Below, one piece after another: positions 2,223 to 28,756 of a stretch of 38,555 nt of DNA. How positions within the stretch are numbered: the stretch's first letter is position 1; each line of letters starts with the position of its first letter. The notes under the pieces were generated by a model that was not told the origin of the DNA, did not search any database, and worked only from the letters and a program-made list of their open reading frames with translations. Position numbers and translations under genes: made by a program. The stretch is from Hydrogenophilales bacterium CG_4_10_14_3_um_filter_63_21 (GTDB lineage Bacteria; Pseudomonadota; Gammaproteobacteria; Burkholderiales; Thiobacillaceae): the NCBI GenBank assembly GCA_002784045.1, contig PFJX01000016.1:318-38872 (forward strand), written 5' to 3'.

Positions 2223-3844
2223 AGATTCATAACCTCCCGCTCCCCGACTTCTCGCGGAAGTCATTTCTCATCGTCGAAGACTACGAAGGCATGCGCGGCA
2301 TCCTGCGCGACCTCCTCGGCCGCGCCGGCGCCACCCGCATCGACTTCGCCGCCAGCGGCGACAGCGCCCTGACGATGCTGGAGAAGACCCGTTACGACGC
2401 CGTGCTCTGCGATCTGCATCTCGGCCAAGGGAAGAACGGCCAGCAGGTGCTGGAAGAAGCGCGGCTGCGCCAACTCCTCGCGCCCCATGGCGTCTGGCTC
2501 ATGATCAGCGCGGAGAAAAGCTCGGAAATGGTCATGGGCACCGCCGAAACGCGGCCCGACGACTACCTGGTCAAGCCGATCTCGGAAACCCTGCTGTTCA
2601 TCCGCTTGCGGCACCAGATGGACAAGAAGCAGGTGCTGGCGCCAATCGAGCAGGCCATGCGCGACCACGAGTACCTCAAGGCCATGCGCCTGGTCGACCA
2701 GCTCCTCGCCACACACTCCGCATATACCTGGGATCTGAAACGCCTGAAAGCGGAACTCGCCCTGCAATCGGGCGACCTGGAACAGGCCCGCGCCGTGTTC
2801 GAGGACGCCCTGGGCCAGCGCGATCTGCCCTGGGCTCGCCTGGGACTGGCGCGCATCCTGTTCCAGGACAACCAATTGGAACAAGCCCGCCAGCATCTGC
2901 TGCGAATCACGGGCGGCAGCCGCGCCTACCTGGACGCCCACGACTGGCTGGCGCGAACGCTGGAAAGCCTGGGCGACCTGGATGGCGCCCAGAAAGCGCT
3001 CGAGCACGCCCTCTCGCTGTCGCCGCATGTCGCCGCTCGGCAATCCAGCCTGGGCGAGGTGGCCGCCCGGCGTGGCGATCTCGAAACCGCCGCGCGAGCC
3101 TACCGGCGCGGCATTGAACTGGCGCGCAATTCCCGGAATGCGTCCGTGGAGCCTTACCTGAGCCTGGCGCGCGTGCTCCTGGCGCGCGGCGAGAGCGGCG
3201 AGGCGGCCGAGGTGATCGGCCGCCTCGGCGTTGACATGAAGCACGACAGCAACGCGCAATTCCTGGCGCGTGTGATGGAAATTCCGATCCGCCTGAACAG
3301 CGGCGGCGAGCAGGCCGCGAGTCAACTGCTGGCTGAGCTGGCCCCCAGCCTGCGCCACGACGCGCATCGACTGCCGCCGGAACTGGCCTTCGACCTGGCC
3401 GGGCCACTCCTGCAACTGGGGGATAGGGAAACGCTCGACGCCGTGTTCACCAACCTGCTGGCCAACCACCACGAGCACCCCGACTACGCGAACCGGGTGC
3501 GCACGCTCTATGCCGAGGCGGGACGCGAGGAGGAAGGGGTGAAGCTGGTGGAGGAGGCGACTCGATCCGCCCTGGATATCATGGACCGGGGCGTGAGCCT
3601 GTCACGCGCCGGCAAACTCGACGAAGCCCTGACCCTGCTCCGCGAAGCGTGCCACAAGCTACCGGGCAACCCGCGCCTACTGCTCAACCACGCCTACCTG
3701 CTCATCACCCACATGGAACAACACGGCCGCGACTTGCACCTGGTCTATGAAGCCCTGGAGTGCATCAAGACCGCCCGCCGCTCGGCGCCGCATGACAAAC
3801 GCGTGGGGGAGTTGTTGGCGAAACTGGAACAGGTTGGAGCGTAG
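2219..3844 (+). CDS. Response regulator with receiver domain and TPR array
   Basis: A CheY-like receiver occupies residues 14-130. It has the acidic pair Glu20-Asp21, the phosphoacceptor Asp65 in CDLHLG, Ser97 and Lys119 in LVKP. The rest of the 541 residues is alpha-helical tetratricopeptide-like repeat, for example the segments around ARLGLARILFQDNQLEQAR and GDLETAARAYRRGIELAR. There is no DNA-binding or enzymatic output domain, so phosphorylation probably switches a protein-protein interaction surface. The start is GTG at 2219, overlapping the kinase TGA by four bases; no ATG is available nearby. It forms a cognate pair with the upstream kinase. The stop TAG at 3842 lies inside a GTAG-bounded repeat. 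The partner of the TPR array is unknown. Confidence 0.85.
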   Translation: MKIHNLPLPDFSRKSFLIVEDYEGMRGILRDLLGRAGATRIDFAASGDSALTMLEKTRYDAVLCDLHLGQGKNGQQVLEEARLRQLLAPHGVWLMISAEKSSEMVMGTAETRPDDYLVKPISETLLFIRLRHQMDKKQVLAPIEQAMRDHEYLKAMRLVDQLLATHSAYTWDLKRLKAELALQSGDLEQARAVFEDALGQRDLPWARLGLARILFQDNQLEQARQHLLRITGGSRAYLDAHDWLARTLESLGDLDGAQKALEHALSLSPHVAARQSSLGEVAARRGDLETAARAYRRGIELARNSRNASVEPYLSLARVLLARGESGEAAEVIGRLGVDMKHDSNAQFLARVMEIPIRLNSGGEQAASQLLAELAPSLRHDAHRLPPELAFDLAGPLLQLGDRETLDAVFTNLLANHHEHPDYANRVRTLYAEAGREEEGVKLVEEATRSALDIMDRGVSLSRAGKLDEALTLLREACHKLPGNPRLLLNHAYLLITHMEQHGRDLHLVYEALECIKTARRSAPHDKRVGELLAKLEQVGA

Positions 3845-3925
3845 GTCGGAACGCGAAGCGGTTCCGACAAGCGGTTCCGACAATCGAGCCACGGTGTCGG
3901 ATCGCCCTACGGGCATCCAACCTAC
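3841..3925. repeat. GTAG-bounded paired palindrome (family B, copy 1)
   Basis: The element starts GTAGGT and ends ACCTAC. Its left half is GTAGGTCGGAACGCG with a matching GCGGTTCCGAC arm. Its right half is GGATCGCCCTACGGGCATCC, itself a hairpin. GCGGTTCCGACAA is tandemly duplicated (3858-3883). The left GTAG supplies the TAG stop of the receiver-TPR gene, and the right CTAC supplies the TAG stop of convergent rdgB. Similar elements lie at 22368-22444 and 28679-28756. GTAG at the hairpin foot is the known signature of REP sequences. Confidence 0.85.
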
Positions 3926-4509
3926 AGCTTCCCCAACTTCTCCGCCAACGCCCGCAATGCCTGGCCGCGGTGGCTGATGCCGTTCTTCTCCTCCATACCG
4001 AGTTCGGCGCCGGTGCGGCCGAAGGCGGGGATCAGGAAATAGGGGTCATAGCCAAAACCGCCGTCGCCGCGCGGCGCGTCGATGATTTCTCCGTGCCAGG
4101 CGCCCTCGGCAATGATCGGGGTGGGATCGTCGGCGTAGCGCACATAGACCATCACGCAGTAGTAATGGGCGCGGCGGTTGGCTTCGCCTTGCAGGGCTTC
4201 GATCAGCTTCTGGTTGTTGCGCTGGTCCGACTTGGGTTCGCCGGCATAGCGCGCCGAGTACACACCGGGGGCGCCGTTCAAGGCATCCACGCAGATACCC
4301 GAGTCATCCGCCAGCGCCGGCAGGCCGGTGTGGGCCGCGGCGTGCCGCGCCTTGGCGATGCAGTTTTCGACAAAGGTGACATGCGGTTCCGGGCACTCGG
4401 GTACACCGAAAGCGCCTTGCGGCATGGCTTCGAAACCCATCGGTTCGAGAATTCGGGCGATTTCGCGCAACTTGCCCGCGTTGTTGGAGGCGATGACGAT
4501 TTTTTTCAT
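3922..4509 (-). CDS. rdgB: dITP/XTP pyrophosphatase (non-canonical purine NTP phosphatase)
   Basis: RdgB hydrolyses dITP, dXTP and ITP to monophosphates and keeps deaminated purines out of nucleic acid. The 195-residue product shows the family signatures: SNNAGK near the N-terminus, FVENCIAKARHAA, the catalytic/metal segment ALADDSGICVDALNGAPGVY, SARYAG, GFGYDPYF and SHRGQALRAL at the C-terminus. The start at 4509 (MKKIVIASNN) fits the family; an in-frame ATG 11 codons upstream would lie in the spacer after rph. It follows rph by 29 bases in the same direction and is probably cotranscribed with it. A small GTAGCG-CCGA-CGCTAC palindrome lies in its leader. The stop is a TAG within the family B repeat. 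Confidence 0.95.
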   Translation of the reverse strand: MKKIVIASNNAGKLREIARILEPMGFEAMPQGAFGVPECPEPHVTFVENCIAKARHAAAHTGLPALADDSGICVDALNGAPGVYSARYAGEPKSDQRNNQKLIEALQGEANRRAHYYCVMVYVRYADDPTPIIAEGAWHGEIIDAPRGDGGFGYDPYFLIPAFGRTGAELGMEEKNGISHRGQALRALAEKLGKL

Positions 4510-4520
4510 GTGGGTGTCCA

Positions 4521-4536
4521 GTAGCGCCGACGCTAC
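4521..4536. repeat. Miniature GTAGCG/CGCTAC palindrome (reduced family A)
   Basis: GTAGCG-CCGA-CGCTAC is a perfect 6-bp-arm palindrome between rph and rdgB. It has the same GTAGCGCCG start and CGCTAC end as the longer family A elements at 8746, 16692, 18534 and 26892. It could be a decayed or minimal copy, and it sits 11 bases upstream of the rdgB start codon. Confidence 0.5.
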
Positions 4537-4538
4537 AT

Positions 4539-5264
4539 TCATGCCAATGCACTACGCTGCAAGGCCATCAATTCGCGAATGCCTTTCTCGGCCAGGTCGA
4601 GCAGCGCGTTCAATTCTGTGCGGGTGAACGCCACACCTTCCGCCGTGCCCTGCACTTCGATCAGGCTTTTCTCCCCCAGCATCACCACATTCATATCGGT
4701 ATCGCAGGCGACGTCCTCGGCATAGTCGAGGTCGAGCACTGGAATGCCGTTCCAGATACCCACGGAGATGGCGGCGACTTGGCCGTGCATGGCGTTGGCG
4801 GGGAGTTTGCCCTCCCGCACCAACCACTCCACGGCGTCATGAACCGCTACCCAGGCGCCGGTGATGCTGGCGGTGCGGGTGCCCCCATCGGCCTGGAGCA
4901 CGTCGCAATCGACTTGAATGGTGCGTGCGCCGAGCTGGTCCAGATCCACCGCCGCGCGGAGTGAGCGGCCGATCAGCCGCTGAATTTCCTGGGTGCGGCC
5001 GGATTGCTTGCCGCGCGCGGCTTCGCGGTCACCGCGGGTGTGGGTGGCGCGCGGCAACATGCCGTATTCGGCGGTGAGCCAGCCCGCGCCGGTGCCTTTC
5101 ACATGCGCGGGCACTTTCTCCAGCACGCTGGCGGTGCACAGCACTTGGGTATCGCCGCATTCCACCAGCACGCTGCCTTCGGCGTGTTTGCTGTAATTGC
5201 GGGTCAGGCGCACGGCGCGCAATTGGTCGGCGGCGCGCCCGGAGGGGCGTTGTGGTTCAGACAT
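4539..5264 (-). CDS. rph: RNase PH
   Basis: RNase PH is a phosphorolytic 3'-5' exoribonuclease that trims tRNA 3' ends. The 241-residue product is close to the usual 238. It contains [53 protein letters not shown] and [18 protein letters not shown], all hallmark segments of the family, including the phosphate-contacting arginines in the RSGRTQEI region. The start at 5264 ([10 protein letters not shown]) is preceded by a GAAGGA Shine-Dalgarno. The open frame extends 29 codons further upstream into PP2C sequence without family similarity. It lies between the PP2C phosphatase and rdgB in a minus-strand run with spacings of 10 and 29 bases, suggesting one transcript. Confidence 0.96.
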
Positions 5265-5274
5265 CGGGTTTCCT

Positions 5275-6186: not shown

Positions 6187-6188
6187 GC

Positions 6189-8708: not shown

Positions 8709-8710
<2 letters not shown>

Positions 8711-8745: not shown

Positions 8746-8845
8746 TGTAGCGCCGGCGTCTCGCCGGCTTTGTCCTTCTGATCAGGCCCACGAAGCCGGC
8801 GAGACGCCGGCGCTACAGTGGGGGTGTGGGCTTGTTTCACGTTAA
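8746..8845. repeat. Large perfect palindrome (family A, copy 1) with flank
   Basis: A 25-bp perfect inverted repeat (8746-8770 and 8793-8817) begins TGTAGCGCCGGCG and ends CGCCGGCGCTACA, around a 22-base centre containing CTGATCAGGCCCACG. The 16-base sequence GCTTGTTTCACGTTAA at 8830-8845 reappears, inverted, at 16664-16679 beside copy 2. The mobile or duplicated unit is thus larger than the palindrome itself. The hairpin lies between gmk and convergent ppnP and could terminate both transcripts. Confidence 0.85.
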
Positions 8846-15445: not shown

Positions 15446-16618
15446 CTACGGCGCGTAGACGAAATACAACCCCAACTGCCGCAACAAGTTCTGCCCCAAC
15501 GCGTCTTCGTTGCCAACCAGGCGGGGTCGCACGGCGACTATCTGGACTCTGGACAGGCCCGCCGCCAGCGGCAGTGCGGGAGGAAAGGAAAATTCCAGGG
15601 TTTGCGCCACGCCCTGGCCAAGCTGCGCGAGCAATCCCTTGGGCTGCGCCGCGACGGGCAATGCGGGACAGCTTGCCGGGCGCTCGCGCGCCAGTCGTTC
15701 CAGGGGCGCGCGAGCGCCTTGTTCGAGACGGGCCAGCGCGGAGTCGAGCTCGGCGGCGGGCGCGCACAAATCCAGCAGGCTGACGTCGGCTTCGACCCCC
15801 GTGCTGGATTCCGCAGTGACTTGCAGCGCAATGCTTACGGCGGCAAGCGCCCCCTCTACCCGAGCCGGCACCCTCGCCTCCAGATGGCCACGCAGGCTGA
15901 GCGGCAGGCGTTCGTCGCGCCCAGCCGCCCGCCGCCACTTGAAGCCTTCCATGAACCACGCCAGGCCCCTTCCCGCATGGGTGGCGGTGTCTGCAAGCCG
16001 TAAGTAGTCGAAGCCATAGCCGGTCATCATGCCGTTCTCGCCGAGGTGCTCCACATCCGCCTGAACCAGGGCTTCCAGGGCTTCACGGCCAGGTTGTGCG
16101 GCCACCACGCGGGTGCTGATCCAATGCCTCGCTTGCGGGCCGAAATCCGCCCCGGCGAGAAGGTCGTAGATCGGCTTGGGCAGCCCGGCCGCTTGCGGCG
16201 AGGCGAAGGCGAGCAGGCTGTAGGCGCGCCCCTCATGCACGCTGGCAAGTTGGAACACGATCGCGCCGCCGTCATTGGCCGGGCGCCGGCAGACCAGCCA
16301 GCGCACGCCGGCGATGTCGAGCCCGCCGATTTCCGCGCCGCGGCCGTACTGAGCGCCCCATTTTTTGCGCAGATTGGCGTGGAACGCCGCCGCGTCGGCC
16401 TTGAGTGGCGTGGACTCGCGCGGCAGCGCGACTTGCAGAGCGACGCCCTGGAGAGCCGGCCACTCCAGCAGATAAACGCCGTCCTCCTTTTCCTGCGCCG
16501 GATCGCCTCGCCGCCAGCCGGCATCCGGCGACAGGTGTAGAGCGTCGATGCGCAACGCCTCCGCCAACGCGGCCTGCACCGATAACAACAACATCCCGCA
16601 CAACAGCCAGCCTCTCAT
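15446..16618 (-). CDS. Secreted protein of unknown function
   Basis: The 390-residue product starts MRGWLLCGMLLLSVQAALA, a clear Sec signal peptide with likely cleavage after ALA, so it should be periplasmic or exported. I do not recognise a family. Visible features are a mixed alpha/beta middle (GGAIVFQLASVHEGRAYSLL) and a few cysteines (VCRRP, LDLCAP, PASCPALP), too far apart for a haem motif. The C-terminus ends in LRQLGLYFVYAP. The start at 16618 gives the best signal peptide; 11 more codons upstream (MRVQTWGGEIS) would spoil it. It is convergent with nothing and lies between pabB and divergent hrpA, probably as its own unit. The TAG stop falls in GTAG, followed on its strand by a weak GGCC hairpin. 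Confidence 0.8.
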   Translation of the reverse strand: MRGWLLCGMLLLSVQAALAEALRIDALHLSPDAGWRRGDPAQEKEDGVYLLEWPALQGVALQVALPRESTPLKADAAAFHANLRKKWGAQYGRGAEIGGLDIAGVRWLVCRRPANDGGAIVFQLASVHEGRAYSLLAFASPQAAGLPKPIYDLLAGADFGPQARHWISTRVVAAQPGREALEALVQADVEHLGENGMMTGYGFDYLRLADTATHAGRGLAWFMEGFKWRRAAGRDERLPLSLRGHLEARVPARVEGALAAVSIALQVTAESSTGVEADVSLLDLCAPAAELDSALARLEQGARAPLERLARERPASCPALPVAAQPKGLLAQLGQGVAQTLEFSFPPALPLAAGLSRVQIVAVRPRLVGNEDALGQNLLRQLGLYFVYAP

Positions 16619-16663: not shown

Positions 16664-16790
16664 TTAACGTGAAACAAGCTCACGTCCCTCCTGTAGCGCC
16701 GGCTTTATGTCCCGCGGGGACGGTATCCTTTAGGGCCAGCCGGCTTCGTGGGCCTGATCAGAAAGACGCCGGCTGGAAGCCGGCGCTACA
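16664..16790. repeat. Family A repeat, copy 2, inverted and expanded
   Basis: TTAACGTGAAACAAGC (16664-16679) matches the flank of copy 1 in inverted orientation. TGTAGCGCCGGC starts at 16692 and GCCGGCGCTACA ends at 16790. The internal GCCGGCTTCGTGGGCCTGAT (16739-16758) continues into CAGAA and matches the reverse complement of copy 1. About 30 bases after the left arm (TTTATGTCCCGCGGGGACGG region) are not in copy 1. The element fills the spacer upstream of hrpA, so the hrpA frame extending into it is not its true start. Confidence 0.8.
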
Positions 16791-16831: not shown

Positions 16832-19800
16832 ATGACCGTTAGCCTACCCCACCTGGAGTTTCCGGAAGCCTTGCCGGTTTCCGCCCGCCGCGCCGACATC
16901 GCCGCCGCCCTGCTCGCGCACCCGGTGATCATTGTCTGCGGCGAGACCGGTTCCGGCAAAACTACGCAGTTGCCCAAGATCGCGCTCGCCGCCGGGCGCG
17001 GCGGAGTTGGCCACGGGGTTGGCAATATCGGCGGCCTGGTGGGGATGACGCAACCGCGCCGAATCGCCGCCAAGAGCGTGGCGGCGCGCATCGCCGAGGA
17101 AACGAAATCTCGCCTTGGCGGCCTGGTCGGCTGGCAGGTACGCTTCACCGATCAGGTTTCAAAGGAGAGCCGGATCAAGGTGATGACCGACGGCATTCTG
17201 CTGGCGGAAACCCAGTCCGACCCTGACTTCCGCGCCTACGACACCCTGATTCTCGACGAGGCGCACGAGCGCAGCCTGAACATCGACTTTCTGTTGGGCT
17301 ACCTGAAGACCCTGCTGCCCCGCCGCCCCGACCTGAAGCTGATCCTGTCTTCCGCGACCATCGAGGCTGACCGCTTCTCCGCCTTCTTCGACGGCGCGCC
17401 GGTGGTGGAGGTGTCGGGGCGGACTTATCCGGTGGAGCTGCGCTACCGCGCAACGGAGCGCGCAGCGGAAGGGGGCGTCGGCGCTCCGGCGAAGGAAGAA
17501 GAACCCGACTTCGACCTCGCCCTGATCCATGCCGTCGACGAACTCGCCGCCGCCGGCCCCGGCGACATCCTGGTGTTCCTGCCGGGCGAGCGGGAGATCC
17601 GCGACGCCCACGAGGCGCTGCGCAAGCACCATCCGCCGCAGACCGAAATCCTGCCGCTGTTCGCGCGCCTGTCGGTGGCCGATCAAGAACGGGTTTTCTC
17701 CTCCCACGGTGGCCGCCGCATCGTGCTCGCCACCAACGTGGCGGAAACCTCGCTCACCGTGCCGGGCATTCGTTATGTGGTGGATGCCGGCCTGGCGCGG
17801 GTGAAGCGCTATTCCATCCGCAACAAGATCGAACAGCTCAAGGTGGAAAAGGTGGCGCAGTCTTCCGCCAACCAGCGCGCCGGGCGTTGCGGGCGGGTGG
17901 CGGCAGGCATCTGCATTCGCCTCTATGGCGAAGCCGATTTCCTTTCCCGGCCGAAATACACCACCCCGGAACTGCTGCGCTCCTCGCTGGCCGGGGTCAT
18001 CCTGCGGATGAAGTCGCTGCGCTTGCCGGACATCGAGGTGTTTCCCTTCCTCGATGCCCCCGAGGGCAAACGCATCCGCGACGGCCAGCAACTCCTGGGC
18101 GAACTCGGCGCCCTGGACGAGCGCGGGCGGCTTTCCAGTATTGGCAAACAGCTCGCCCACCTGCCGCTGGACCCACGCATCGGCCGCATGTTGATCGCCG
18201 CGAAGGATCGCGGCTGCCTGCATGAGGTGCTGGTCATCGCCGCCTTCCTCTCGGTCCAGGATCCGCGCGAGCGGCCGCTGGAGCAGCAGGAAGCCGCCGA
18301 CCAGAAGCACCGCCGCTTCATTGACCCCGATTCCGATTTCATCAGTCTGCTCAATCTCTGGACACACATCGACCAACTCAGCGTCCACCGCAAATCGCAG
18401 AAGAAATTCCGCGACGCCTTGAAAGCCGACTTCCTTTCGCCCAACCGGGTGCGGGAATGGCATGACTTGTATGCACAACTGGCCACCCAGGTGAAGGAAC
18501 TGGGCTGGCAGGTGGGAGAGCCGGAGCCGCCACGTAGCGCTGGCGCCTCGCCGGCGGAGGCGCCGGCGCTACCTTACGCCGCCCTGCACCAAGCCCTCCT
18601 GCCCGGCCTCCTCGGCAACCTCGGAATGCTCACCGAGGACGGCGCCTATCTCGGCGCGCGCGACATGAAGTTCTGGATATTTCCCGGCTCCGGGGTGAAA
18701 AAAAAGCCGAAGTGGCTGCTCGCCGCCGAGATCGTGGAAACCAAGCGGGTCTATGCCCGCATGGTGGCGAAGATTGAGCCGGAGTGGATCGAACTCGCCG
18801 CCCGGCATTTGCTGAAAGTTTCCTACTCCGACCCGCACTGGGCCAAGAAACCGGCGCAGGTGGCGGCGTCCATGCGCGCCACCTTGTACGGCTTGCCGGT
18901 GGTGAATGGCCGCCGCGTGCATTACGGCCCGATCGACCCGGTGCTGTCGCGCGAGCTGTTCATCAGAGGCGCCCTGGTCGCGGGCGAATTTGAGACCCGC
19001 GCGCCCTGGTTCGAACACAACCGCCGCCTGCTCGAAGAAATCGACGACCTCGCCCAGCGCGCCCGCAATGCCCGCTTGGTGGTGGATGAGCATCGCCTGT
19101 ACGAATTCTTCGACGCACGTGTGCCACCAGGCATCCACAACGGCGCGGCCTTCGACCGCTGGCGGCGCGACGCGGAGCAAGCCCAGCCGCGCCTGCTCTA
19201 CCTGGAACGCGCGACGCTGCTGGCCGACGATCACGATTCCCAAGAGCAGGAATTTCCGCCCGAGATCGACCTCAACAGCGCCCGCTACCCGCTCGCCTAC
19301 CGCTTCGACCCCGGCACGGAAGACGACGGCGTCACCCTGATCGTCCCGCTCGCCGCGCTCAACCAGATTTCCCCGGCGCGCTGCGAATGGCTGGTGCCCG
19401 GCCTCCTGGAAGAAAAAATCACCGCCCTGATCAAGAGCCTGCCGCAATCCATCCGCCGCGCCTTCGTGCCGGTGCCGGAGTACGCCCGGGCGGCGGCGGC
19501 AGCCTTGGCGACCAACACCGCCGATACCGCGCGCCTGGCGTCACTGACCGACGCCCTCGCCGCCTTCCTGTCCAAATCCACCGGCCAGCTCATCCCGCGC
19601 GACGCCTGGCGCCCGGAAGCCCTCGCTGCCCACCTGGCCATGAATTTCCGGGTGCAGGACGAAGCCGGCAAGACCCTGGCCGAAGGCCGCGATCTCGCGG
19701 CCCTGCGCCAGCAACTAGGCAGCGCCGCCAGCGAGGAACTGGCGCGCGCAGTTGGCCAAATCACCGGCCAGTTCCAGCGCGACCAGATCACGAAATGGGA

Positions 19801-20656
19801 CTTCGGCGACCTGCCGGAAACCGCCACGGTCAACAGCGGCGGTCGCGTTGGTGGCCAAATCGTCGCCGCCTTCCCTGCGCTGCAATGCGTGGAGGGCCAG
19901 GTCAATCTGCGCCTGTTCGACCATCCCGACGCAGCCCGCGCCGCGCACCGCCTGGGCGTGGCCCGCCTGCTCTGGCTGGGCTTCCCCGACCTGCTGAAAC
20001 AGGGCGAGCGCGACCTGGCCGTGCGCCTTAAACCTGCCTGCCTGCAATACGCCCTGTTGTTCAAGGGCGTCTCCTGTCTTGGCCTTACCCGCGACCTGCT
20101 GGCCGCCGCCTTGTTTGGCCTTCGAGAGGTCGCCGACATCCGCGGCCAGGCCGCGTTTGCCGAAGCCGCGCAAGCCGTCCGCCCGCGCCTGTCGGAAACC
20201 AGCACCCGCCTGGCGACCACGGCGACGGACTGCCTCGCCGCCGCGTACCGTCTCAGCCAGGCACTGGCCAAGGCCCCCGCCGCCTGGAAAAGCGCCGTGA
20301 CCGACCTGCGCGAACAACTCGACGCCCTGGTGTTTCCCGGCTTTCTCACGGCCCACCCCGGCGAGCGCCTGGCCCACCTGCCGCGCTATCTCAAGGCCAT
20401 GGAACTACGCCTGGCCAAGCTCCCCAATCAGCCCGCGCGCGACAGCACCGCACAACGCGAAATAGCCCCGCTGCTCACGGCCTGGCGTTCCCGCGTGGAA
20501 CGCCTGAAAGCGCAAGGCCAGGACGACCCGGCGTTGGAGACTTTCCGCTGGCAACTGGAAGAACTGCGCGTCTCCCTGTACGCCCAGGAACTGAAGACGC
20601 CGGAACCGGTGTCGGTGAAGCGACTGGCAAAACGCTGGGCGGAAATCGCCCGGTGA
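16832..20656 (+). CDS. hrpA: ATP-dependent RNA helicase HrpA
   Basis: HrpA is a DEAH-box RNA helicase implicated in rescuing stalled or collided ribosomes and in mRNA processing. The 1274-residue product is close to the E. coli 1300. It has Walker A GETGSGKTTQ, motif Ia TQPRRIAA, DEAH in LDEAHERSLN, SAT in LILSSATIE, TNVAETSLTVPGIRYVVDAG and QRAGRCGR. After these come the HA2 and OB regions and the long DUF3418 C-terminus typical of HrpA. The ATG at 16832 is used because the 28 codons upstream lie in a repeat. A 39-bp palindromic repeat is inserted in frame around residues 568-580. The stop is 19 bases before the chemoreceptor frame. Confidence 0.96.
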   Translation: MTVSLPHLEFPEALPVSARRADIAAALLAHPVIIVCGETGSGKTTQLPKIALAAGRGGVGHGVGNIGGLVGMTQPRRIAAKSVAARIAEETKSRLGGLVGWQVRFTDQVSKESRIKVMTDGILLAETQSDPDFRAYDTLILDEAHERSLNIDFLLGYLKTLLPRRPDLKLILSSATIEADRFSAFFDGAPVVEVSGRTYPVELRYRATERAAEGGVGAPAKEEEPDFDLALIHAVDELAAAGPGDILVFLPGEREIRDAHEALRKHHPPQTEILPLFARLSVADQERVFSSHGGRRIVLATNVAETSLTVPGIRYVVDAGLARVKRYSIRNKIEQLKVEKVAQSSANQRAGRCGRVAAGICIRLYGEADFLSRPKYTTPELLRSSLAGVILRMKSLRLPDIEVFPFLDAPEGKRIRDGQQLLGELGALDERGRLSSIGKQLAHLPLDPRIGRMLIAAKDRGCLHEVLVIAAFLSVQDPRERPLEQQEAADQKHRRFIDPDSDFISLLNLWTHIDQLSVHRKSQKKFRDALKADFLSPNRVREWHDLYAQLATQVKELGWQVGEPEPPRSAGASPAEAPALPYAALHQALLPGLLGNLGMLTEDGAYLGARDMKFWIFPGSGVKKKPKWLLAAEIVETKRVYARMVAKIEPEWIELAARHLLKVSYSDPHWAKKPAQVAASMRATLYGLPVVNGRRVHYGPIDPVLSRELFIRGALVAGEFETRAPWFEHNRRLLEEIDDLAQRARNARLVVDEHRLYEFFDARVPPGIHNGAAFDRWRRDAEQAQPRLLYLERATLLADDHDSQEQEFPPEIDLNSARYPLAYRFDPGTEDDGVTLIVPLAALNQISPARCEWLVPGLLEEKITALIKSLPQSIRRAFVPVPEYARAAAAALATNTADTARLASLTDALAAFLSKSTGQLIPRDAWRPEALAAHLAMNFRVQDEAGKTLAEGRDLAALRQQLGSAASEELARAVGQITGQFQRDQITKWDFGDLPETATVNSGGRVGGQIVAAFPALQCVEGQVNLRLFDHPDAARAAHRLGVARLLWLGFPDLLKQGERDLAVRLKPACLQYALLFKGVSCLGLTRDLLAAALFGLREVADIRGQAAFAEAAQAVRPRLSETSTRLATTATDCLAAAYRLSQALAKAPAAWKSAVTDLREQLDALVFPGFLTAHPGERLAHLPRYLKAMELRLAKLPNQPARDSTAQREIAPLLTAWRSRVERLKAQGQDDPALETFRWQLEELRVSLYAQELKTPEPVSVKRLAKRWAEIAR
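18534..18572. repeat. 39-bp family A palindrome inside hrpA (in frame)
   Basis: Arms GTAGCGCTGGCGCCTC (18534-18549) and GAGGCGCCGGCGCTAC (18557-18572) pair with one G-T wobble around the loop GCCGGCG. The ends are the same GTAGCGC and GCGCTAC as intergenic family A copies. Its 39 bases equal 13 codons and encode SAGASPAEAPAL-type sequence in a linker between conserved HrpA segments (VKELGWQ and YAALHQALLPGLLGN). Confidence 0.85.
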
Positions 20657-20675: not shown

Positions 20676-22371
20676 GTGCAGCGCGCTCAAGTTTCGTTCC
20701 CCGCTGTCGATAAGGCGGCGAATCCCTATACAAAAAAGACGGAGACGCCCTCGAAGTCGATCGCTTTCTGCACCGGCACCATTACTTCCAGAATCCTCGC
20801 CTTCGCGGCGGGCCTGTTTCTGGTCATCCTCACCGCATCGCAGATACACGCCCACTTCGCGCAGAAAAATCTGGCGGAGGAATTCGTCGGCAACCAGGTA
20901 GGTGGTGTTGCGGACACCTATTTCGATGGCCTGAACAAGCTGATGCTGACCGGCGCCATGGCGACGCGCGATGAACTGCCGCTGCAGATCAAACAGCAGC
21001 CCAATGTCCTGGAAGCGCGCGTGATCCGGAGCGACGCCGTAATCGGCCAGTATGGGCCGGCCGACGCCAGGGAAATGGCCGCTGACGACCTCGATCGCGA
21101 TGCCTTGAAAGGCAAGGAAACCGCGCGTATCGAAGAAACCCCACAAGGGCGCCGGCTCACCCTGGTGCGGCCGTTCCGGGCGAGCGAGAAAACCCGGGGC
21201 GTCGACTGTATGGGTTGCCACAGCGTACCCACCGGCACCGTCCTGGGCGCTGTCCGTATCAGCTACGATCTGGCGCCGGTGGATGTGCGCATCCGCAACG
21301 CGGGACTGATCAGCCTGGGCATCCATGGTGTGCTGTTCTTCTTCGGCATGGCGCTGCTCATCCTGGCCCTGCGCCGCACCGTGGCGGCGCCGATCAACCG
21401 CCTGACGGCGCTGATGACGCGGGTGGAACAGGAATCCGATCTGAACCTGCGTATTCCCGTGGACGGCAGGGATGAAATCGCCTGTGCGGCGCACGCCTTC
21501 AACACCATGATGGAGCGCTTCGCCGACATCATCCGTCAGGTCGGCGGTGCCACCCATCATCTCAGCCAGGTGGCCAGCCATCTGGTCATGGTCACTACCC
21601 GCACCCAGGCCGGTGTCGACAAGCAACTTGTTGATACCGAACAACTGGTCGCCACACTGACCCAACTCGCCGGCAGTGTGCAGGAAGTGGCGCATAACAA
21701 CCCAGGCAGCGGCCGACGCGGCCCGCCAAGCCGACAACGATGCGAAGGAAGGGACGAAAACCTCCACCTGCGCCCTCGGCGCCATCTCCGCCATGTCCGA
21801 TCAACTGAAACAGGCGGTAAACGTCATCCAGCGTCTGGATACCGATAGCCGCGACATTGGCCGGGTGATCGGCCTGATCCGCGTGATCACCGAGCAAACC
21901 AACCTGCTCGCCCTAAACGCCGCCATCGAAGCCGCTCGTGCCGGCGAACAGGGGCGCGGTTTCGCCGTGGTCGCCGACGAAGTGCGCACCCTGGCGCAAC
22001 GCACCCAATCCGCCACCGAAGACATCGAGAGCATCATCGTCATGGTTCAGGATCGCGCCAAGGAAGCCGTGGGCGCCATCCAGAGCGCGGAACAGAAGAC
22101 CGACTCCAGCGTGAAGAGCGTCCAGGAAAGCGCGGCGGCACTCACCACCATTTCCGGTTCGGTGAGTGTCATCACCCGCATGAATGCCCAGATCGCGTCC
22201 AGTTCAAAAGAACAGAGCAGCGCGGCGGACAGCATCAACCAGAAACTCGGCGACATCGGCGCCGTCGCCCGCGAAGCCTCCAGCCATGCCCACGATACCC
22301 ACGGCGCCAGCGAGCAGCTCGCCGCCCTGGCGCGGGAGCTGGAAGGCATGGTGAATCAGTTCCAGGTGTAG
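20676..22371 (+). pseudogene. Methyl-accepting chemotaxis protein with CxxCH haem motif, frameshifted
   Basis: The 5' frame (GTG at 20676) encodes TM1 (about residues 39-56), then a periplasmic domain with CMGCH (Cys178, Cys181, His182), a c-type haem attachment motif near VLGAVRISYD. It continues with TM2 (209-232), a HAMP domain and the start of the signalling coiled coil up to SVQEVAHN. The frame then shifts at 21696-21700, where AACAACCCAG has one A more than the AACACCCAG that would give [14 protein letters not shown]. The rest continues in the +1 frame with the highly conserved tip [38 protein letters not shown]. As written, no full receptor is made. The start codon is uncertain, as no ATG exists. 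A sequencing error or slippage is possible. Confidence 0.85.
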
Positions 22372-22444
22372 GGCGGAACGCGACAGCGGTTCCGCCGAAT
22401 TACGCCCCGGCATGGCGGATCGGCCTGCCGGCCATCCGCCCTAC
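22368..22444. repeat. GTAG-bounded paired palindrome (family B, copy 2)
   Basis: The termini GTAGGGCGGA (22368-22377) and TCCGCCCTAC (22435-22444) are a perfect 10-bp inverted repeat. Inside are GCGGAACGCGACAGCGGTTCCGC and GGATCGGCCTGCCGGCCATCC hairpins, equivalent to the two halves of the copy at 3841. Both flanking genes end in its GTAG/CTAC: the chemoreceptor frame at 22369-22371 and the small membrane protein at 22441-22443. Confidence 0.85.
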
Positions 22445-22593
22445 CTCCAAGCCGCCCCCAGCATCACCGCCGCCACGACCAGCGCCACCAGCCCCGTAGC
22501 CCATTGCCCAGTCGCGCCCCAGGCCGCGCCGGCCACGATCATCACGGGGTAGATCAGGGTGGAAAGGCGGGCGGTCCAATCGGTTGCATTCAT
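22441..22593 (-). CDS. Small two-span membrane protein, unknown
   Basis: The 50-residue product (MNATDWTARLSTLIYPVMIV, AGAAWGATGQWATGLVALVV, AAVMLGAAWR) has two hydrophobic helices separated by GATGQWATG. The ATG at 22593 is preceded by GGAGA seven bases upstream, a good ribosome site. An open frame extending upstream to 22749 runs into the WYL gene and is not used. Its TAG stop is in the family B repeat. I do not recognise the family. It is divergent from the WYL regulator with a 158-base spacer, which may control both. Confidence 0.6.
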   Translation of the reverse strand: MNATDWTARLSTLIYPVMIVAGAAWGATGQWATGLVALVVAAVMLGAAWR

Positions 22594-22751
22594 GTCAATC
22601 TCCGAAACCATCAAGATGGCGACATGATGCACGCCACGAGGCTCACCAGATGAGCCTGTTATAAAGTCGCTGGCGGCAAGGCGGCAGCGGCTTTTCGGCG
22701 GGCATGAGGCATACTCTCGCCACCCATCCATTCTTCGCCAAGGGTTCACGC

Positions 22752-23795
22752 ATGGATCGCACGGAACGCTTCTACAAGATCGACCAGCTTCTCGCCGAAC
22801 GCCGCGTGGTGCCGTTCGAAGCGTTGCAGTCCGCGCTGGAAGTCTCGCGCGCCACCCTCAAGCGCGACCTGCTCTACCTGCGCGACCGCCTCAACGCTCC
22901 CATCGTCTGGGACCGCGCGGCACGCGGCTATCGCTATGCCGGGCAAGGCACAGCGCGCGCCGGCAGGCAGTTCGCGCTGCCCGGCCTGTGGTTTAACGCT
23001 CAGGAAATCCACGCCCTGCTGACTATGCAGCACCTGCTCGCCAGCCTCGATCAGGGCGGCCTCCTGGGTCCGCAGGTGCAGCCGCTGATGGCCCGCCTGA
23101 ATGGCCTCATGGGCACGGCCGACGACAGCGCCGAGGAAGTACGCAAGCGAGTACGGATCATCGGCGCGGCGGCGCGAAGCCTGGATCTCGCCCAATTCGA
23201 ACGCATCGGCTCCGCCCTGCTGCGCCGCAAGCGACTGCTGATTACCTACCACGCGCGCGGCAGCAATGAAGTCAGTGAACGCGAAGTCTCGCCGCAACGC
23301 CTGGTGCACTACCGCGGGAACTGGCACCTGGATGCCTGGTGCCACTTGCGCCGCGGCCTGCGCAACTTTTCCGTGGACGCCATCGAACGCGCGGAGATTC
23401 TGGAAAAGCCCGCCCGCGACCTCGCCGAAAAAACGCTGAACAAGAAGCTTGGCGCCGGCTATGGCATTTTTTCTGGAACCCAGGTGCAATGGGCCAAGCT
23501 CCGCTTCAGCCCGGAGCGAGCGCGCTGGGTGGCAAGCGAGCAGTGGCACCCGAAGCAGAAAGGGCACCTGGATCGGGATGGCGCCTATCTCCTGGAACTC
23601 CCCTATAGTGATGATCGGGAACTGATCATGGACATCCTGAAATACGGCCCGGATTGCGAAGTGCTGGGGCCGGATGCGCTGCGCGAGCGGGTATGGGAAC
23701 AGGCCAGGGCAACCCTTGCGCTTTATCGAAAATCGCCTGGCGCGCGTTCCCCCGGCCGGGGGAAACAAAAACCCGTCAATCGCACTACCCCATGA
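22752..23795 (+). CDS. WYL-domain transcriptional regulator
   Basis: The 347-residue protein has an N-terminal DeoR-type winged HTH (RFYKIDQLLAERRVVPFEAL to RATLKRDLLYLRDRL) and a WYL domain. The WYL part contains RRKRLLITYHARGSNEVSEREVSPQRLVHYRGNWHLDAWCHLRRGLRNFSVDAIE, and the C-terminal WCX-type extension continues to the end. WYL domains bind nucleic-acid-like or nucleotide ligands in many defence and DNA-damage regulators, but this architecture is also common in stand-alone regulators. The ATG at 22752 (MDRTERFYKIDQLL) is the family start; 16 upstream codons are unsupported. No defence system is visible nearby. Confidence 0.92.
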   Translation: MDRTERFYKIDQLLAERRVVPFEALQSALEVSRATLKRDLLYLRDRLNAPIVWDRAARGYRYAGQGTARAGRQFALPGLWFNAQEIHALLTMQHLLASLDQGGLLGPQVQPLMARLNGLMGTADDSAEEVRKRVRIIGAAARSLDLAQFERIGSALLRRKRLLITYHARGSNEVSEREVSPQRLVHYRGNWHLDAWCHLRRGLRNFSVDAIERAEILEKPARDLAEKTLNKKLGAGYGIFSGTQVQWAKLRFSPERARWVASEQWHPKQKGHLDRDGAYLLELPYSDDRELIMDILKYGPDCEVLGPDALRERVWEQARATLALYRKSPGARSPGRGKQKPVNRTTP

Positions 23796-23848
23796 AACAA
23801 GCAATATCCGGATAATCCGGCCTCTCTCAACAATATTACTTTCGATAT

Positions 23849-24683: not shown

Positions 24684-25037
24684 GTGGGGCGCGCCCGCCC
24701 CGGCGACTGGCTGATTCTGTTCGCGGGGCTCACCCTGGCCATTGGGTTGTGGCTGCGCCAGGCGGACAGCCTGGAGGGGCGCGTCATCGTGCGCCTCGAT
24801 GGCAAGGTGGCGATCGAGACCAGCCTGCGCCTGAATCGCCAGATCGAAATCAACGGGCCGCTGGGCATCAGCCGGATCGAAATCCGCGATGGCCGCGTGC
24901 GTGTCGCCCGCGACCCCAGCCCACGCCAACTCTGTGTCCGGCAAGGCTGGATAGCGCCGGGCGGGGCCGCCATCTGCCTGCCCAACCGGGTCAGCGTGGA
25001 AAACGCCGCGGCGGGTTACGACACGCTCAATTACTGA
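24684..25037 (+). CDS. NusG domain II-containing membrane-anchored protein
   Basis: The 117-residue product has an N-terminal membrane helix (DWLILFAGLTLAIGLWL) and then a soluble region with LEGRVIVRLDGKVAIETSL, IEINGPLGISRIEIRDGRVRVARDPSPRQLCVRQGWI, GGAAICLPNRVSVE. This is the NusG-II fold of small stand-alone proteins found beside Gx transporters and Rnf/ApbE-type genes. The GTG at 24684 starts one base after the rapZ stop, with GGGAG in the end of rapZ. The Gx transporter gene lies 64 bases downstream. The pair is known in Firmicutes and some Proteobacteria; its molecular role is not established. Confidence 0.85.
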   Translation: MGRARPGDWLILFAGLTLAIGLWLRQADSLEGRVIVRLDGKVAIETSLRLNRQIEINGPLGISRIEIRDGRVRVARDPSPRQLCVRQGWIAPGGAAICLPNRVSVENAAAGYDTLNY

Positions 25038-25101
25038 AGCCTACCGGCGCGACGCTGGAAACCCCACCCGTTCAGGGCTCGTTAATGAATAACATGGCGC
25101 C

Positions 25102-25617: not shown

Positions 25618-26219
25618 AACGCATCACCCTCGCCCTCACCGGCGCCTCCGGCATGGCTTACGGCCTGCGCTTGCTGGAATGCCTGCTGCACGCAGGCTGC
25701 CAGGTTGATCTCTTGATCTCGCAGGCCGCGCGCATCGTCGCCCAGCACGAGCTCGATCTGCGGCTTCCCACCGGCAACGGCGAGGTAGCCGCTTTCTTCG
25801 ACCGTCGCTTCGCAGGCCACCATGGCCACCTCACGGCCTACGGCAAGGAGGAGTGGTTCGCGCCCGCCGCTTCCGGCTCCAATCCGGCCACCGCGATGGT
25901 GGTCTGCCCGTGCACCATGGGCACGCTGGCGGCGATCGCCCACGGCCTCGCCGACAATCTGATCGCACGCGCCGCCGACGTGATGCTCAAGGAGAAGCGG
26001 CCATTGCTCCTGGTGCCGCGCGAAACCCCGTTCTCCCTCATTCATCTGCGCAACATGACCGCCCTGGCCGAAGCCGGCGCCACGATTCTTGCCGCCAACC
26101 CCGGCTTCTACCATCGCCCTGAAAGCGTGGCACAGGTGGTGGATTTCATCGTCGCGCGCATCCTCGATCACTTGGGCATCGCGCACGAATTGATGCGGCC
26201 CTGGGGCGCGCATGAGTAA
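25614..26219 (+). CDS. ubiX: Flavin prenyltransferase UbiX
   Basis: UbiX prenylates FMN to make prFMN, the cofactor of the UbiD decarboxylase in ubiquinone synthesis. The 201-residue product has LTGASGMAYGLRLLECL, the phosphate loop and FMN segment GSNPATAMVVCPCTMGTLAAIAHGLADNLI, RAADVMLKEKRPLLLVPRETP, HLRNMTALAEAGATILAANPGFYHRP. The ATG overlaps the Gx transporter stop as ATGA and AGAGAG precedes it. UbiD is not in the window. Its TAA is preceded by an out-of-frame ATGAG, possibly the start of a lost downstream gene. Confidence 0.96.
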   Translation: MKRITLALTGASGMAYGLRLLECLLHAGCQVDLLISQAARIVAQHELDLRLPTGNGEVAAFFDRRFAGHHGHLTAYGKEEWFAPAASGSNPATAMVVCPCTMGTLAAIAHGLADNLIARAADVMLKEKRPLLLVPRETPFSLIHLRNMTALAEAGATILAANPGFYHRPESVAQVVDFIVARILDHLGIAHELMRPWGAHE

Positions 26220-26356
26220 CCCGCTCAGGCACCCACGCTCGCCGCTGCGCGCCAGTCGGTGCGGGAATTCATCCGCCGCAATGGGCTGGCACGGTTCGCC
26301 TTGGTTTGCTTGAGGGGCTGTCCATGAATAACATGGACAGCCCCTAAGGAAGCGAA
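26211..26356 (+). other. Possible truncated gene start between ubiX and the PNPOx gene
   Basis: ATGAGTAA overlaps the ubiX stop. In another frame the following bases encode QAPTLAAARQSVREFIRRNG, then LARFALVCLRG, which looks like real protein sequence with biased codon use but ends within the hairpin at 26314. Joining MSNPL to it would need a frameshift near 26230. It may be the stump of a gene once coupled to ubiX. I cannot name the family. Confidence 0.3.
26314..26344. repeat. Perfect 13-bp stem hairpin with AATAA loop
   Basis: GGGGCTGTCCATG (26314-26326), AATAA, CATGGACAGCCCC (26332-26344): a perfect inverted repeat just upstream of the PNPOx-family gene (start 26357). No T-run follows on the plus strand, so it is not a classic terminator. 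ATGAATAACATGG from its centre recurs at 25085-25097. It may be a mobile repeat or a regulatory hairpin. Confidence 0.7.
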
Positions 26357-26896
26357 ATGGCAAAATTTTACGCGGCACTGACGCCGGAACTGGCGGCGTT
26401 CATCGGCAAACAGAAAGTCTTCTTCGTGGCCACCGCGGCACCGGGCGCCCGCATCAACCTCTCGCCCAAGGGCCTGGACAGCTTGCGCGTGCTGGATGAA
26501 CACACCCTGGCCTATCTCGACCTCACCGGCAGCAGCGCGGAAACCGCCGCCCACCTGCGCGCGGACCCGCGCATGACCCTGATGTTCTGTAGCTTCGCCG
26601 CCGACGCCCTGCTCCTGCGCATCTATGGCCAGGGCGAGGGCATTCCGCCGCGCGACCCGCGCTGGGGGGAATTGCGGGCGCTGTTTCCGGAACATCCCGG
26701 CGCGCGCCAGATCGTCCTGTTGCGGGTGGCGTCGGCGCAGACCTCATGCGGCGCCGGGGTGCCGCTGATGGGCTATGCCGGTGAACGCGGCACATTATCG
26801 GAATGGGCACGCAAGAAAGGCGAAGACGGCATGGCCGAATATCGCCGTGAGAAGAACGCGCGAAGCATTGACGGCTTGCCGACCGGGTTGGTGTAG
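26357..26896 (+). CDS. Pyridoxamine 5'-phosphate oxidase-family (FMN-binding split barrel) protein
   Basis: The 179-residue protein starts MAKFYAALTPELAAFIGKQK and has FFVATAAPGARINLSPKGLDSLRVLDEHTLAYLDLTGSSAETAAHL, RMTLMFCSF and RIYGQGE. That is the PNPOx-like split barrel found in a large family of putative FMN- or F420-dependent oxidoreductases, distinct from PdxH. An AAGGAAG ribosome site precedes the ATG. The substrate is unknown. The TAG stop lies in the GTAG of the palindrome at 26892-26920, and the gene is convergent with folB across it. Confidence 0.88.
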   Translation: MAKFYAALTPELAAFIGKQKVFFVATAAPGARINLSPKGLDSLRVLDEHTLAYLDLTGSSAETAAHLRADPRMTLMFCSFAADALLLRIYGQGEGIPPRDPRWGELRALFPEHPGARQIVLLRVASAQTSCGAGVPLMGYAGERGTLSEWARKKGEDGMAEYRREKNARSIDGLPTGLV

Positions 26897-26920
26897 CGCC
26901 GGCAAGATGCCGGCGCTACA
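26892..26920. repeat. Short perfect palindrome (family A, copy 3), probable bidirectional terminator
   Basis: TGTAGCGCCGGC (26892-26903), AAGAT, GCCGGCGCTACA (26909-26920), followed by GTTTTAC. It lies in the 27-base gap between the PNPOx gene and convergent folB and supplies the TAG stop of the former. The stem plus TTTT could terminate plus-strand transcripts. Confidence 0.85.
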
Positions 26921-26923
26921 GTT

Positions 26924-27280
26924 TTACAATCGCGAACCGCGCTCGACGATGATGCCGAGTTCCTTCACCCCACGCAGGATGGCGAGCTTGCGCACGGTGA
27001 CTTTTACCCAGGGTGCGCCGAACTCGCTACGCACGATCTCCGCGATGTGTTCTCCCAGGGTTTCCACCAGACGGATTTCGCGCGCGGCCACGCTGTCACG
27101 GATACGCTCGGCCACCTGGCCATAGTGGATGGTGTCGCCGATCTGGTCGGTGTGTCCCGCCTTGTGGTCGTAGAGGCCGATCTCCAGGTCGATCATTACC
27201 GACTGCGGCGCTTTGCGCTCCCATTCGTAGAGCCCGATAATCAGCTCCAGGCGGAAATCCCGCAGAAACAGTATGTCCAT
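26924..27280 (-). CDS. folB: Dihydroneopterin aldolase
   Basis: FolB cleaves dihydroneopterin to 6-hydroxymethyldihydropterin and glycolaldehyde in folate synthesis. The 118-residue product is of typical length and has MDILFLRDFRLELIIGLYEWERKAPQ, DLEIGLYDHKAGHTDQIGDTIHYGQVAERIRD, RLVETLGEHIAEIV and VKVTVRKLAILRGVKELGIIVER, matching the family's tunnelling fold with the catalytic lysine in VRKLAI. The gene is divergent from plsY (47-base spacer), a common betaproteobacterial arrangement, and convergent with the PNPOx gene. Confidence 0.94.
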   Translation of the reverse strand: MDILFLRDFRLELIIGLYEWERKAPQSVMIDLEIGLYDHKAGHTDQIGDTIHYGQVAERIRDSVAAREIRLVETLGEHIAEIVRSEFGAPWVKVTVRKLAILRGVKELGIIVERGSRL

Positions 27281-27327
27281 CCAACCCCCGGCCGCTATTC
27301 ACAAAAACGAACGCGCATTTTACGCAA

Positions 27328-27969
27328 ATGACCGCGCAACCACCTGAACTCACGCTGATTCTTGTCGCCTGCTACCTCCTCGGCTCGGTCTCCTTCGCGA
27401 TCGTGGTCGCGCGCGCCTATGGCCTACCCGATCCACGCAGCCACGGTTCCGGCAACCCCGGCGCCACCAACATGCTGCGCACCGGGAAAAAATCCGCCGC
27501 CGTCCTCACCTTGTTGGGCGACGCGCTCAAGGGTTATGCCGCGGTCAAGCTGGCGCAGTGGGCAACCCTGTCCTGGGGCTTGCCCGCCTATACGCCCTAC
27601 CTGGCCGCGCTTGCCGCTTTCCTGGGGCATCTATTTCCCGTGTTCTTCGGCTTCAAGGGCGGCAAGGGCGTGGCCACCGCGCTGGGCGTCCTGCTGGCGC
27701 TGGATGCCCGCCTGGGTGGGCTGACCCTGGCAACCTGGGCCATCATGTTCACCCTCACCCGCATCTCCTCGCTGTCCGCCCTGGTTGCCGCCACCCTGGC
27801 ACCGTTCTATGGTTGGCTGCTGCTCGATGGCGGCCCGGAAAGTGGCCCCAAAATTGGCCTCCTCGCCCTGCTCTGCGGCCTGGTGCTGGCGCGCCATCAC
27901 GGCAATATCCGCAAGCTCCTCTCCGGCGAGGAAAGGGCTTTCAAAAATCGGGCCTTCAAAAAGAGATGA
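27328..27969 (+). CDS. plsY: Glycerol-3-phosphate acyltransferase PlsY
   Basis: PlsY is the inner-membrane enzyme that transfers the acyl group from acyl phosphate to glycerol 3-phosphate, starting phospholipid synthesis. The 213-residue product has about five membrane segments and the conserved loops GLPDPRSHGSGNPGATNMLR, TLLGDALKGYAAV and GHLFPVFFGFKGGKGVATALGV, with the third motif in RHHGNIRKLLSGEERAF at the end. Its stop overlaps a possible ATG of the next gene (ATGA). Confidence 0.96.
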   Translation: MTAQPPELTLILVACYLLGSVSFAIVVARAYGLPDPRSHGSGNPGATNMLRTGKKSAAVLTLLGDALKGYAAVKLAQWATLSWGLPAYTPYLAALAAFLGHLFPVFFGFKGGKGVATALGVLLALDARLGGLTLATWAIMFTLTRISSLSALVAATLAPFYGWLLLDGGPESGPKIGLLALLCGLVLARHHGNIRKLLSGEERAFKNRAFKKR

Positions 27970-27971
27970 CC

Positions 27972-28682
27972 ATGTTCGAGAAAACCATCGACTACGCCCG
28001 CGAAAGCCTGATCGCCGCCTCCGAGGCGGCCGTCGACCGGGCCGGGGAACGGATGGGGCAGGTGGTGGACAACGCCAGCCAGGCGATCGACCAGAAGCTC
28101 GACAAAATTTCCCTGGAACTGCACAGCCAGCGCCAGTTCACCAAGGACGACGTGCACGAACTGGTGGATTACGCCGCCGTGCGGCTTTCCGACGTGCTGG
28201 ATCAGCGTATCGCCCTGATGCGGCGGGAAATCACCAGCCTGGTCGAGGAAAAAACCGAGTATTTCAAAACCGAAATCGACGACTTCTTCATCAAGCGGCA
28301 GCAAGATCTGGCGCGCGAACGCCGCCGCCTGCTGATCAACATTGTGCTGGCTACCGCGGCGGCCTTGAGCGTGGGCGCCATCTCGCTGTTCTATAAGGGC
28401 GTGCGCGAGTGGGATCTGCTCACGGTGTTCCGTGTGGTACTAGCCTCGCTCGCCGGCGGCTATGGCGTCTGGCTGGTGGCATCGCTGCTGCGCGGCTGGC
28501 TGCGCATGACCGAGCACAAGAAGGACCTGGTGTTCCTGGCTGCCCGCTACTGGGGCTGGCTGCGCCCAGCCAGCATCTTCTCCACCCTGGTCGTGCTCGC
28601 CATCCTCGGCTTGCTGTCCCTGGCGCTGATGTTCCCGCATGAGGCACTGCGCCTGATCGGGCAGCCGATTCTGAATCCGTAG
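27972..28682 (+). CDS. Coiled-coil membrane protein of unknown function
   Basis: The 236-residue product has a long charged, helical N-terminal half (FEKTIDYARESLIAASEAAV to FIKRQQDLARERRR) predicted to form coiled coil, then three hydrophobic segments (LLINIVLATAAALSVGAISL, VFRVVLASLAGGYGVWLVAS, SIFSTLVVLAILGLLSLALM). The ATG at 27972 has AAGAG at good spacing; an ATG at 27966 overlapping the plsY stop would add two residues. It is transcribed with plsY and is convergent with tsaD. I do not recognise the family. The organisation resembles phage-shock or YqjD-like membrane-associated proteins only superficially. The TAG stop lies in the family B repeat. Confidence 0.8.
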   Translation: MFEKTIDYARESLIAASEAAVDRAGERMGQVVDNASQAIDQKLDKISLELHSQRQFTKDDVHELVDYAAVRLSDVLDQRIALMRREITSLVEEKTEYFKTEIDDFFIKRQQDLARERRRLLINIVLATAAALSVGAISLFYKGVREWDLLTVFRVVLASLAGGYGVWLVASLLRGWLRMTEHKKDLVFLAARYWGWLRPASIFSTLVVLAILGLLSLALMFPHEALRLIGQPILNP

Positions 28683-28756
28683 GTTGGAACTGGAACGCCG
28701 AAGGCGGTTCCGACAAACATTACGCTGGCGGATCGCCCTTCGGGCATCCGCCCTAC
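28679..28756. repeat. GTAG-bounded paired palindrome (family B, copy 3)
   Basis: Starts GTAGGTTGGAAC and ends CATCCGCCCTAC. Inside are GGAACGCCGAAGGCGGTTCC and GGATCGCCCTTCGGGCATCC hairpins, homologous to the copy at 3841-3925. The left GTAG provides the TAG of the membrane protein and the right CTAC provides the TAG of convergent tsaD. Confidence 0.88.

Follow-up and report, generated by a model that had tools for sequence, protein, structure and literature searches.

GTAG-footed repeats that supply TAG stop codons to neighbouring genes in a Hydrogenophilales genome

We analysed a stretch of 38,555 nucleotides (nt), the window, from contig PFJX01000016.1 (our C57) of Hydrogenophilales bacterium CG_4_10_14_3_um_filter_63_21. 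Four palindromic elements bounded by GTAG and CTAC lie there at gene ends, and the outer tetranucleotides, or feet, contain TAG, the amber codon, at which neighbouring genes stop. The genome that holds the window (G000; 3.03-Mb, 174 contigs, 99.92% complete) was compared with 22 other genomes of its genus. The named matches of the window's tsaD were mostly betaproteobacteria, at 70% identity or less among the best 80.

A first-pass annotation of the sequence had placed the four palindromes at convergent junctions and read seven of eight flanking stops as a foot TAG. We found all four (Table 1); the one delimited as 26892-26920 is an element at 26893-26919 plus one base on each side (TGTAG...CTACA). 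Foot TAG stops lie at 3842-3844, 3922-3924, 22369-22371, 26894-26896, 28680-28682 and 28753-28755, and the stop at 26924 is TAA, which makes six of seven supported stops. The eighth gene, 22441-22749 on the - strand, is not supported: it has no Pfam family, was not picked by the gene caller and gave no match when a 1.18-Mb sample of one relative was searched with tblastn. Hence, 22368-22444 is not a shown convergent junction, and three of the four stand. The next supported gene beyond this element encodes a WYL-domain regulator (22704-23795, + strand), so that the element most likely sits between two + strand genes, at an apparently tandem junction. Elements 3841-3925 and 28679-28756 each give TAG to both convergent genes, as had been proposed. 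The claim that elements at convergent junctions supply TAG does not extend to a further junction, around the element at 8747-8816, where the convergent genes end at 8710 and 8859, both with TGA. Two other TAG stops had been said to read GTAG, and both do; that at 15446 is a family-B-like foot, and that at 36762 has no recognised palindrome.

The elements are GTAG-type repetitive extragenic palindrome (REP) repeats. They are short palindromes with a GTAG foot, family A exceeds 100 copies, and inverted GTAG...CTAC pairs (REPIN/BIME) occur. The family A half-site (GTAGCGCCGGC) is the commonest, with 249 copies genome-wide versus 15 for a reversed-pattern control. Three of the four named window elements belong to family D, which has only 39 copies of its half-site (GTAGGKYGGA) versus 20 for the control. 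The samples described below also contain families B (GTAGGAGCGG/GTAGGAGGCC), C (GTAGGGTGCGC) and E (GTAGGATGTGG). Hairpin folding beat shuffled sequences on at least one strand for each of the four elements (best z -4.3, -3.9, -7.9 and -3.0), with 22365-22448 folded on the + strand only and the fourth element (28679-28756) reaching a z of only -1.7 on the - strand. An arm-matching scan of all 256 possible feet was dropped, its control being unusable because GC-rich feet dominate.

Feet that a gene reaches tend to end it. Genes were called with a purpose-written script in a 0.93 Mb sample of G000, which includes the window and whose contigs were largely picked for carrying elements, and in a 1.18 Mb sample of a relative in the same genus (G022), whose contigs were not. 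Of the three frames in which a gene can run into a foot, one gives TAG, and we compared the counts with 1/3 by a binomial test, using strict families A-E for all counts of frames and feet. The foot TAG ended the gene in 30/35 cases in G000 (p = 2e-10) and 17/31 in G022 (p = 0.011), or 47/66 for the two genomes pooled (p = 4e-10). In the widest count, which takes all called genes that span a foot, some of them at the called start, the figures were 30/37, 17/33 and 47/70 (p = 3e-9, 0.023 and 8e-9, respectively). When the gene end had to lie no more than 100 nt from the foot, the TAG frame was used in 30/31 (G000) and 17/18 (G022). On these counts, G000 shows a strong frame bias and G022 a modest one. 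Read-through feet are mostly intragenic and use two open frames, giving peptides such as VAPAS or SAG; several of those in G022 adjoin called starts that may be wrong. Strict feet lie outside called genes or at a stop in 147/187 cases in G000, with 40 inside genes (35 on the opposite strand, 5 on the same strand), and in 110/149 in G022, with 39 inside (25 opposite, 14 same).

Elements are also enriched at convergent junctions, as the first-pass annotation had expected. With a slightly wider list of families (A-F) and gaps above 600 nt excluded, G000 has an element at 18/78 convergent, 63/648 tandem and 7/76 divergent junctions, and G022 at 19/95, 44/675 and 2/80, respectively (convergent versus tandem, p = 0.002 in G000 and 6e-5 in G022). 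Among the 18 element-bearing convergent junctions of G000, foot TAGs end both genes at four, one gene at six and neither at eight; among the 19 of G022, the corresponding numbers are one, nine and nine.

The broader claim that TAG stops are tied to elements failed. The G000 sample has 539 TGA, 167 TAA and 160 TAG stops (the last figure includes a TAG at 21848 and excludes the stop at 22371), and the G022 sample has 607 TGA, 191 TAA and 136 TAG. We found only 38/160 and 22/136 of these TAGs, respectively, within a recognisable GTAG element, whether by family, palindrome or hairpin. Hence, TAG is not mainly an element stop in the sampled DNA, the outcome that the first-pass annotation had named as refuting its idea. 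GTAG in itself is not special at stops either, since G is about as frequent before TAA (82/167) as before non-element TAG stops (64/122).

Protein ends change little with or without the element. We compared reciprocal best pairs between G000 and G022, excluding those below 50% identity or 60 aligned residues; one of the 153 pairs had an unaligned tail above 40 and was dropped, leaving 152 alignable pairs. Where only one of the two genomes has an element stop, the ends were alike in 9/16 pairs and at most three residues apart in 15/16. Where neither has one, the ends were alike in 95/133 and at most three residues apart in 122/133. FolB ends at codon 118 at 21/21 loci of the genus, with TGA, TAA, a bare TAG or an element TAG as its stop. 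The proposal that elements trim gene 3' ends finds no support in these ortholog ends or in the constancy of FolB.

The tsaD junction offers an empty site for comparison. In seven element-free genomes (G002, G004, G007, G010, G016, G018 and G021), tsaD and its convergent neighbour overlap by 17 nt. Eight genomes carry an element or a remnant there. The tsaD stop is TAG in 8/8 carriers and 1/11 non-carriers, counts that exclude G014 (gene broken), a second partial copy in G020, and G001, G005 and G013 (no ortholog matched). The neighbour stops with TAG in 6/7 carriers where it was found and 0/10 non-carriers, with G009 and G020 also excluded (neighbour not found). The length of tsaD varies by no more than a few residues, and the neighbour falls about two residues short of its G016 counterpart. 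A single insertion thus split the ancestral 17-nt overlap, separating the two genes and capping both with new stops.

Different families now occupy this one site. Family labels here and at the other compared junctions (folB/PNPOx, TPR/rdgB, L123, L128 and L138) were assigned by eye. Family D is present in G000, G011, G017 and G019, with a half element in G009 and a decayed copy in G008, the TAG of which is preceded by C. At this position, family B is found in G022 and a GTAGGTTGGGC element in G006. A tree of five proteins, with no outgroup, has a split with support 1.000 that sets the carriers and G005 (no tsaD match) apart from the rest, and both G022 and G006 are placed among the D carriers. 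Hence, three REP families are found at the tsaD site within one clade, with the tsaD TAG kept. The feet in G022 are at the same base relative to the flanks as those in G017; the G006 element is shifted on the neighbour's side, and the neighbour's stop there is TAA. The simplest history is one family D insertion and two replacements.

Families also differ between genomes at other junctions. At folB/PNPOx, G000 carries family A and G022 family B. At TPR/rdgB, D is found in G000 and G019, and G022, G006, G011 and G005 carry other repeats. At L128, G000, G011 and G019 carry A, and G006 and G022 carry B. At L123, G017 and G019 share an element that is missing parts of its arms with both TAG stops intact, and G000 has family B. 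L138 has A in G000, G005, G006, G011 and G019; G022 has a B element there after a TGA stop, and its convergent partner was not found. Some genomes lack an element or use TGA/TAA stops at several of these junctions. Composite or nested elements are present in G006 and G011, as nested insertion would leave.

Two further loci were seen beside these. At L302, a family A element of G011 is seemingly interrupted by another palindrome, resembling a nested insertion. At the rdgB/TPR junction of G015 (L167), the convergent genes are separated by 266 bp of spacer with long inverted ends; the spacer is absent in G020 (L168), and a similar sequence follows tsaD in G020 (L284). This spacer may be a different mobile unit at the same kind of site.

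A RAYT gene had been suggested as something to look for, and we found three in G000 that match both the Y1 transposase family and the RAYT model NF047646, two of the three over the cut-off. Matches to this model are present in 21/23 genomes of the genus, 18 of them over the cut-off. The RAYT at L009 is flanked by GTAGCGCAGGC arms, a variant of family A; no cognate REPs were seen in the examined flanks of the RAYTs at L008 and L010. The L009 gene itself (98-1432, - strand, G000:C138) encodes a family-4 uracil-DNA glycosylase with an in-frame RAYT domain (residues 108-219) and inverted GTAGCGCAGGC REP arms around it; a RAYT unit has apparently settled within a host gene here. The RAYT matches in G005, G008, G011, G017, G019 and G022 are surrounded by open frames of 442-612 aa, which may be the same glycosylase fusion.

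We consider it probable that self-capping insertions survived and that their interiors then turned over. GTAG-REPs presumably spread by RAYT transposases. Each end reads xTAG from outside, so that an element inserted into the final codons or the stop of a gene can cap it if it lands in the right one of the three frames; where two convergent genes lie close together or overlap, a single insertion can cap both. Gene-end insertions in other frames would extend or damage the protein and mostly be lost, with selection as the likely filter, and inside genes only non-TAG frames could persist. Once a foot had become the sole stop, selection would keep its TAG, and the interior could decay or be swapped for another REP family, perhaps by nested insertion and deletion between the short foot repeats or by exchange at the transposase cut site. 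Four observations made here belong to this account: the bias in frame, protein ends that barely change, the empty tsaD site and the different families at one site. More tentatively, and with the balance leaning somewhat against it, the junctions may be fixed REP docking sites, where capping feet are kept and the cassette between them is exchanged repeatedly, so that sister species would share the stops and not the repeat.

Several points weigh against survival followed by turnover. The G000 sample was largely selected for element-bearing contigs, and with all read-through feet counted the bias in G022 is modest (17/31 or 17/33); some intragenic feet may be chance coding matches. Relatives that lack the element and share the same TAG would speak against a link between the two, and the G022 counterparts of G000 element stops in which no element was recognised, 11 in all, have four TAG, six TGA and one TAA, so that this held for four and not for seven. 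Two of these four TAGs open another or a decayed repeat, judged by eye, and two do not. (In the reverse direction, with an element stop in G022 only, the five G000 orthologs have four TAA and one TAG.) At tsaD, repeated independent insertion or gene transfer is possible; the joins that place G006 (0.751 and 0.914) are weaker than the clade support, and this is the single junction at which replacement was polarised on the tree.

Feet cluster at and just past stops, and this, like the convergent excess, is what one would see if the RAYT inserted preferentially at gene ends or stop-like sequence, such as an existing xTAG, with the TAG position reflecting integration specificity. The four TAGs at element-less orthologs are what such a target-site model would predict, and RAYT cleavage at CT or CA, possibly guided by GTAG, is described in the available text of one paper (PMC8266576). 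We find target choice unlikely, however, as the tsaD stop of non-carriers is TGA/TAA in 10/11 genomes, the other seven element-less orthologs have TGA/TAA, and many strict feet no more than 100 nt from a gene end do not supply the stop (46/76 in G000 and 44/61 in G022). Survival alone already predicts the frame bias; hence, the preference of the transposase for gene ends proposed in the first-pass annotation is not needed.

The strong hairpins suggest instead that the elements could be kept at gene ends as terminators or mRNA stabilisers, with TAG as a by-product of packing against the gene, and their position at convergent and tandem gene ends matches that of published REPs (PMC3733652, available text). 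A scan for intrinsic terminators (GC-rich hairpin followed by a T run) gave no match at any of the four elements, which speaks against terminators of this type and lends no support to the bidirectional terminator inferred in the first-pass annotation; a Rho-dependent or stabilising role could still apply. However, packing alone gives no preference for TAG over stops just 5' of the foot, and at some junctions the interior decays or differs and the TAG stays, so we regard this explanation as quite unlikely. Finally, GTAG stops might simply be common and the window by chance rich in them. The window is indeed richer in element stops than the samples, and G stands before about half of TAG and TAA stops alike, but 249 versus 15 half-sites, the frame bias and the ortholog comparison make chance very improbable.

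The property noticed in the first-pass annotation is true and already published for GTAG REPs. According to the available text of Di Nocera et al. (2013, PMC3733652), TAG stops are often provided by the ends of GTAG-REPs, REPs of the GTAG superfamily favour convergent and tandem gaps, intragenic REPs are reported, and different REPs lie at about the same site of the recB coding region in two Xanthomonas species. As here, the members of this superfamily are GTAG-footed palindromes, many in inverted pairs, mostly in convergent or tandem gaps near 3' ends. Unlike here, the available text neither counts stop donation nor tests it for frame, and does not set gene ends that carry the element against those that lack it; the recB case is a near precedent but intragenic, whereas here the site is a gene end with a kept stop. 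In the available parts of Nunvar et al. (2010, PMC2817692; 2013, PMC3686654), REP classes have cognate RAYTs, the class can change at RAYT genes ('orthoswitch'), and the later paper describes new variants that partly replace old classes in a genome. This replacement is genome-wide or at the RAYT locus, whereas here different families are found at a single gene junction whose TAG feet are kept. REPINs (Bertels and Rainey 2011, PMC3116915) are likewise inverted REP doublets, with excision evidence for the REPIN as a mobile unit, and the available main text contains neither 'stop codon' nor 'convergent'.

We found no report of a REP family change at the same junction with a retained stop in the literature searched, which mostly lacks subscription papers. 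The GTAG repeats of Stenotrophomonas, which we take to be those named SMAG, are palindromic with a GTAG foot like the elements here, but differ in host and cores. Among their classes, SM10 (GTAGCGCCGGGCC) in the available text of PMC3686654 resembles family A. What we add is the bias towards the TAG frame, protein ends that hardly change, an overlapping pair of genes capped on both sides and an apparent turnover of families between kept feet. Self-supplied stops would account simply for the crowding of GTAG-footed REPs at 3' ends, as they make an insertion little harmful even in overlapping gene ends. If feet are indeed kept as families change, fixed feet would mark one site across species and allow a tree-based study of REP family succession.

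Table 1. Elements of the window and the genes beside them (window coordinates).
Feature	Position	Strand	Remarks
GTAG-REP, family D (GTAGGTCGGA... / ...TCCAACCTAC)	3841..3925		Between TPR/response-regulator gene and rdgB; TAG to both
GTAG-REP, family D (GTAGGGCGGA...)	22368..22444		3' of frameshifted chemotaxis gene; right-hand convergent gene unsupported
GTAG-REP, family A (GTAGCGCCGGC...)	26893..26919		TAG to PNPOx-like gene; other end 4 nt from folB TAA
GTAG-REP, family D	28679..28756		Between gene 27966-28682 and tsaD; TAG to both; 17-nt convergent overlap here in seven relatives
Response-regulator/TPR gene	2219..3844	+	Stop TAG within element foot
rdgB (RdgB/HAM1 family)	3922..4542	-	Stop TAG within element foot
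Methyl-accepting chemotaxis gene, C-terminal part (frameshifted)	21676..22371	+	Stop TAG within element foot
PNPOx-like gene	26357..26896	+	Stop TAG within element foot
folB	26924..27280	-	Stop TAA, outside element
Conserved gene, no Pfam family matched	27966..28682	+	Stop TAG within element foot
tsaD	28753..29784	-	Stop TAG within element foot
TAG stop in family-B-like foot (GTAGGAGGCCTGC)	15446..15448	-	
GTAG-REP, family A	8747..8816		Convergent junction; stops not supplied by element (both TGA)
GTAG-REP, family A	16693..16789		Between divergent genes
Paired GTAG element, 39-bp	18534..18572		Read through in frame inside helicase-like gene 16832-20656

The helicase gene that contains the paired element is presumably HrpA-like. 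Antisense to the WYL regulator gene, a long open frame (22746-23804, - strand) also aligns with a relative and is most likely a shadow of the true regulator gene. The chemotaxis gene (20676-22371) is split by a frameshift near 21.7 kb, which is either an assembly error or the mark of a pseudogene, and the called TAG stop at 21848 is most likely a by-product of it. In many relatives, the best matches of this gene sit in open frames of about 540-630 aa.

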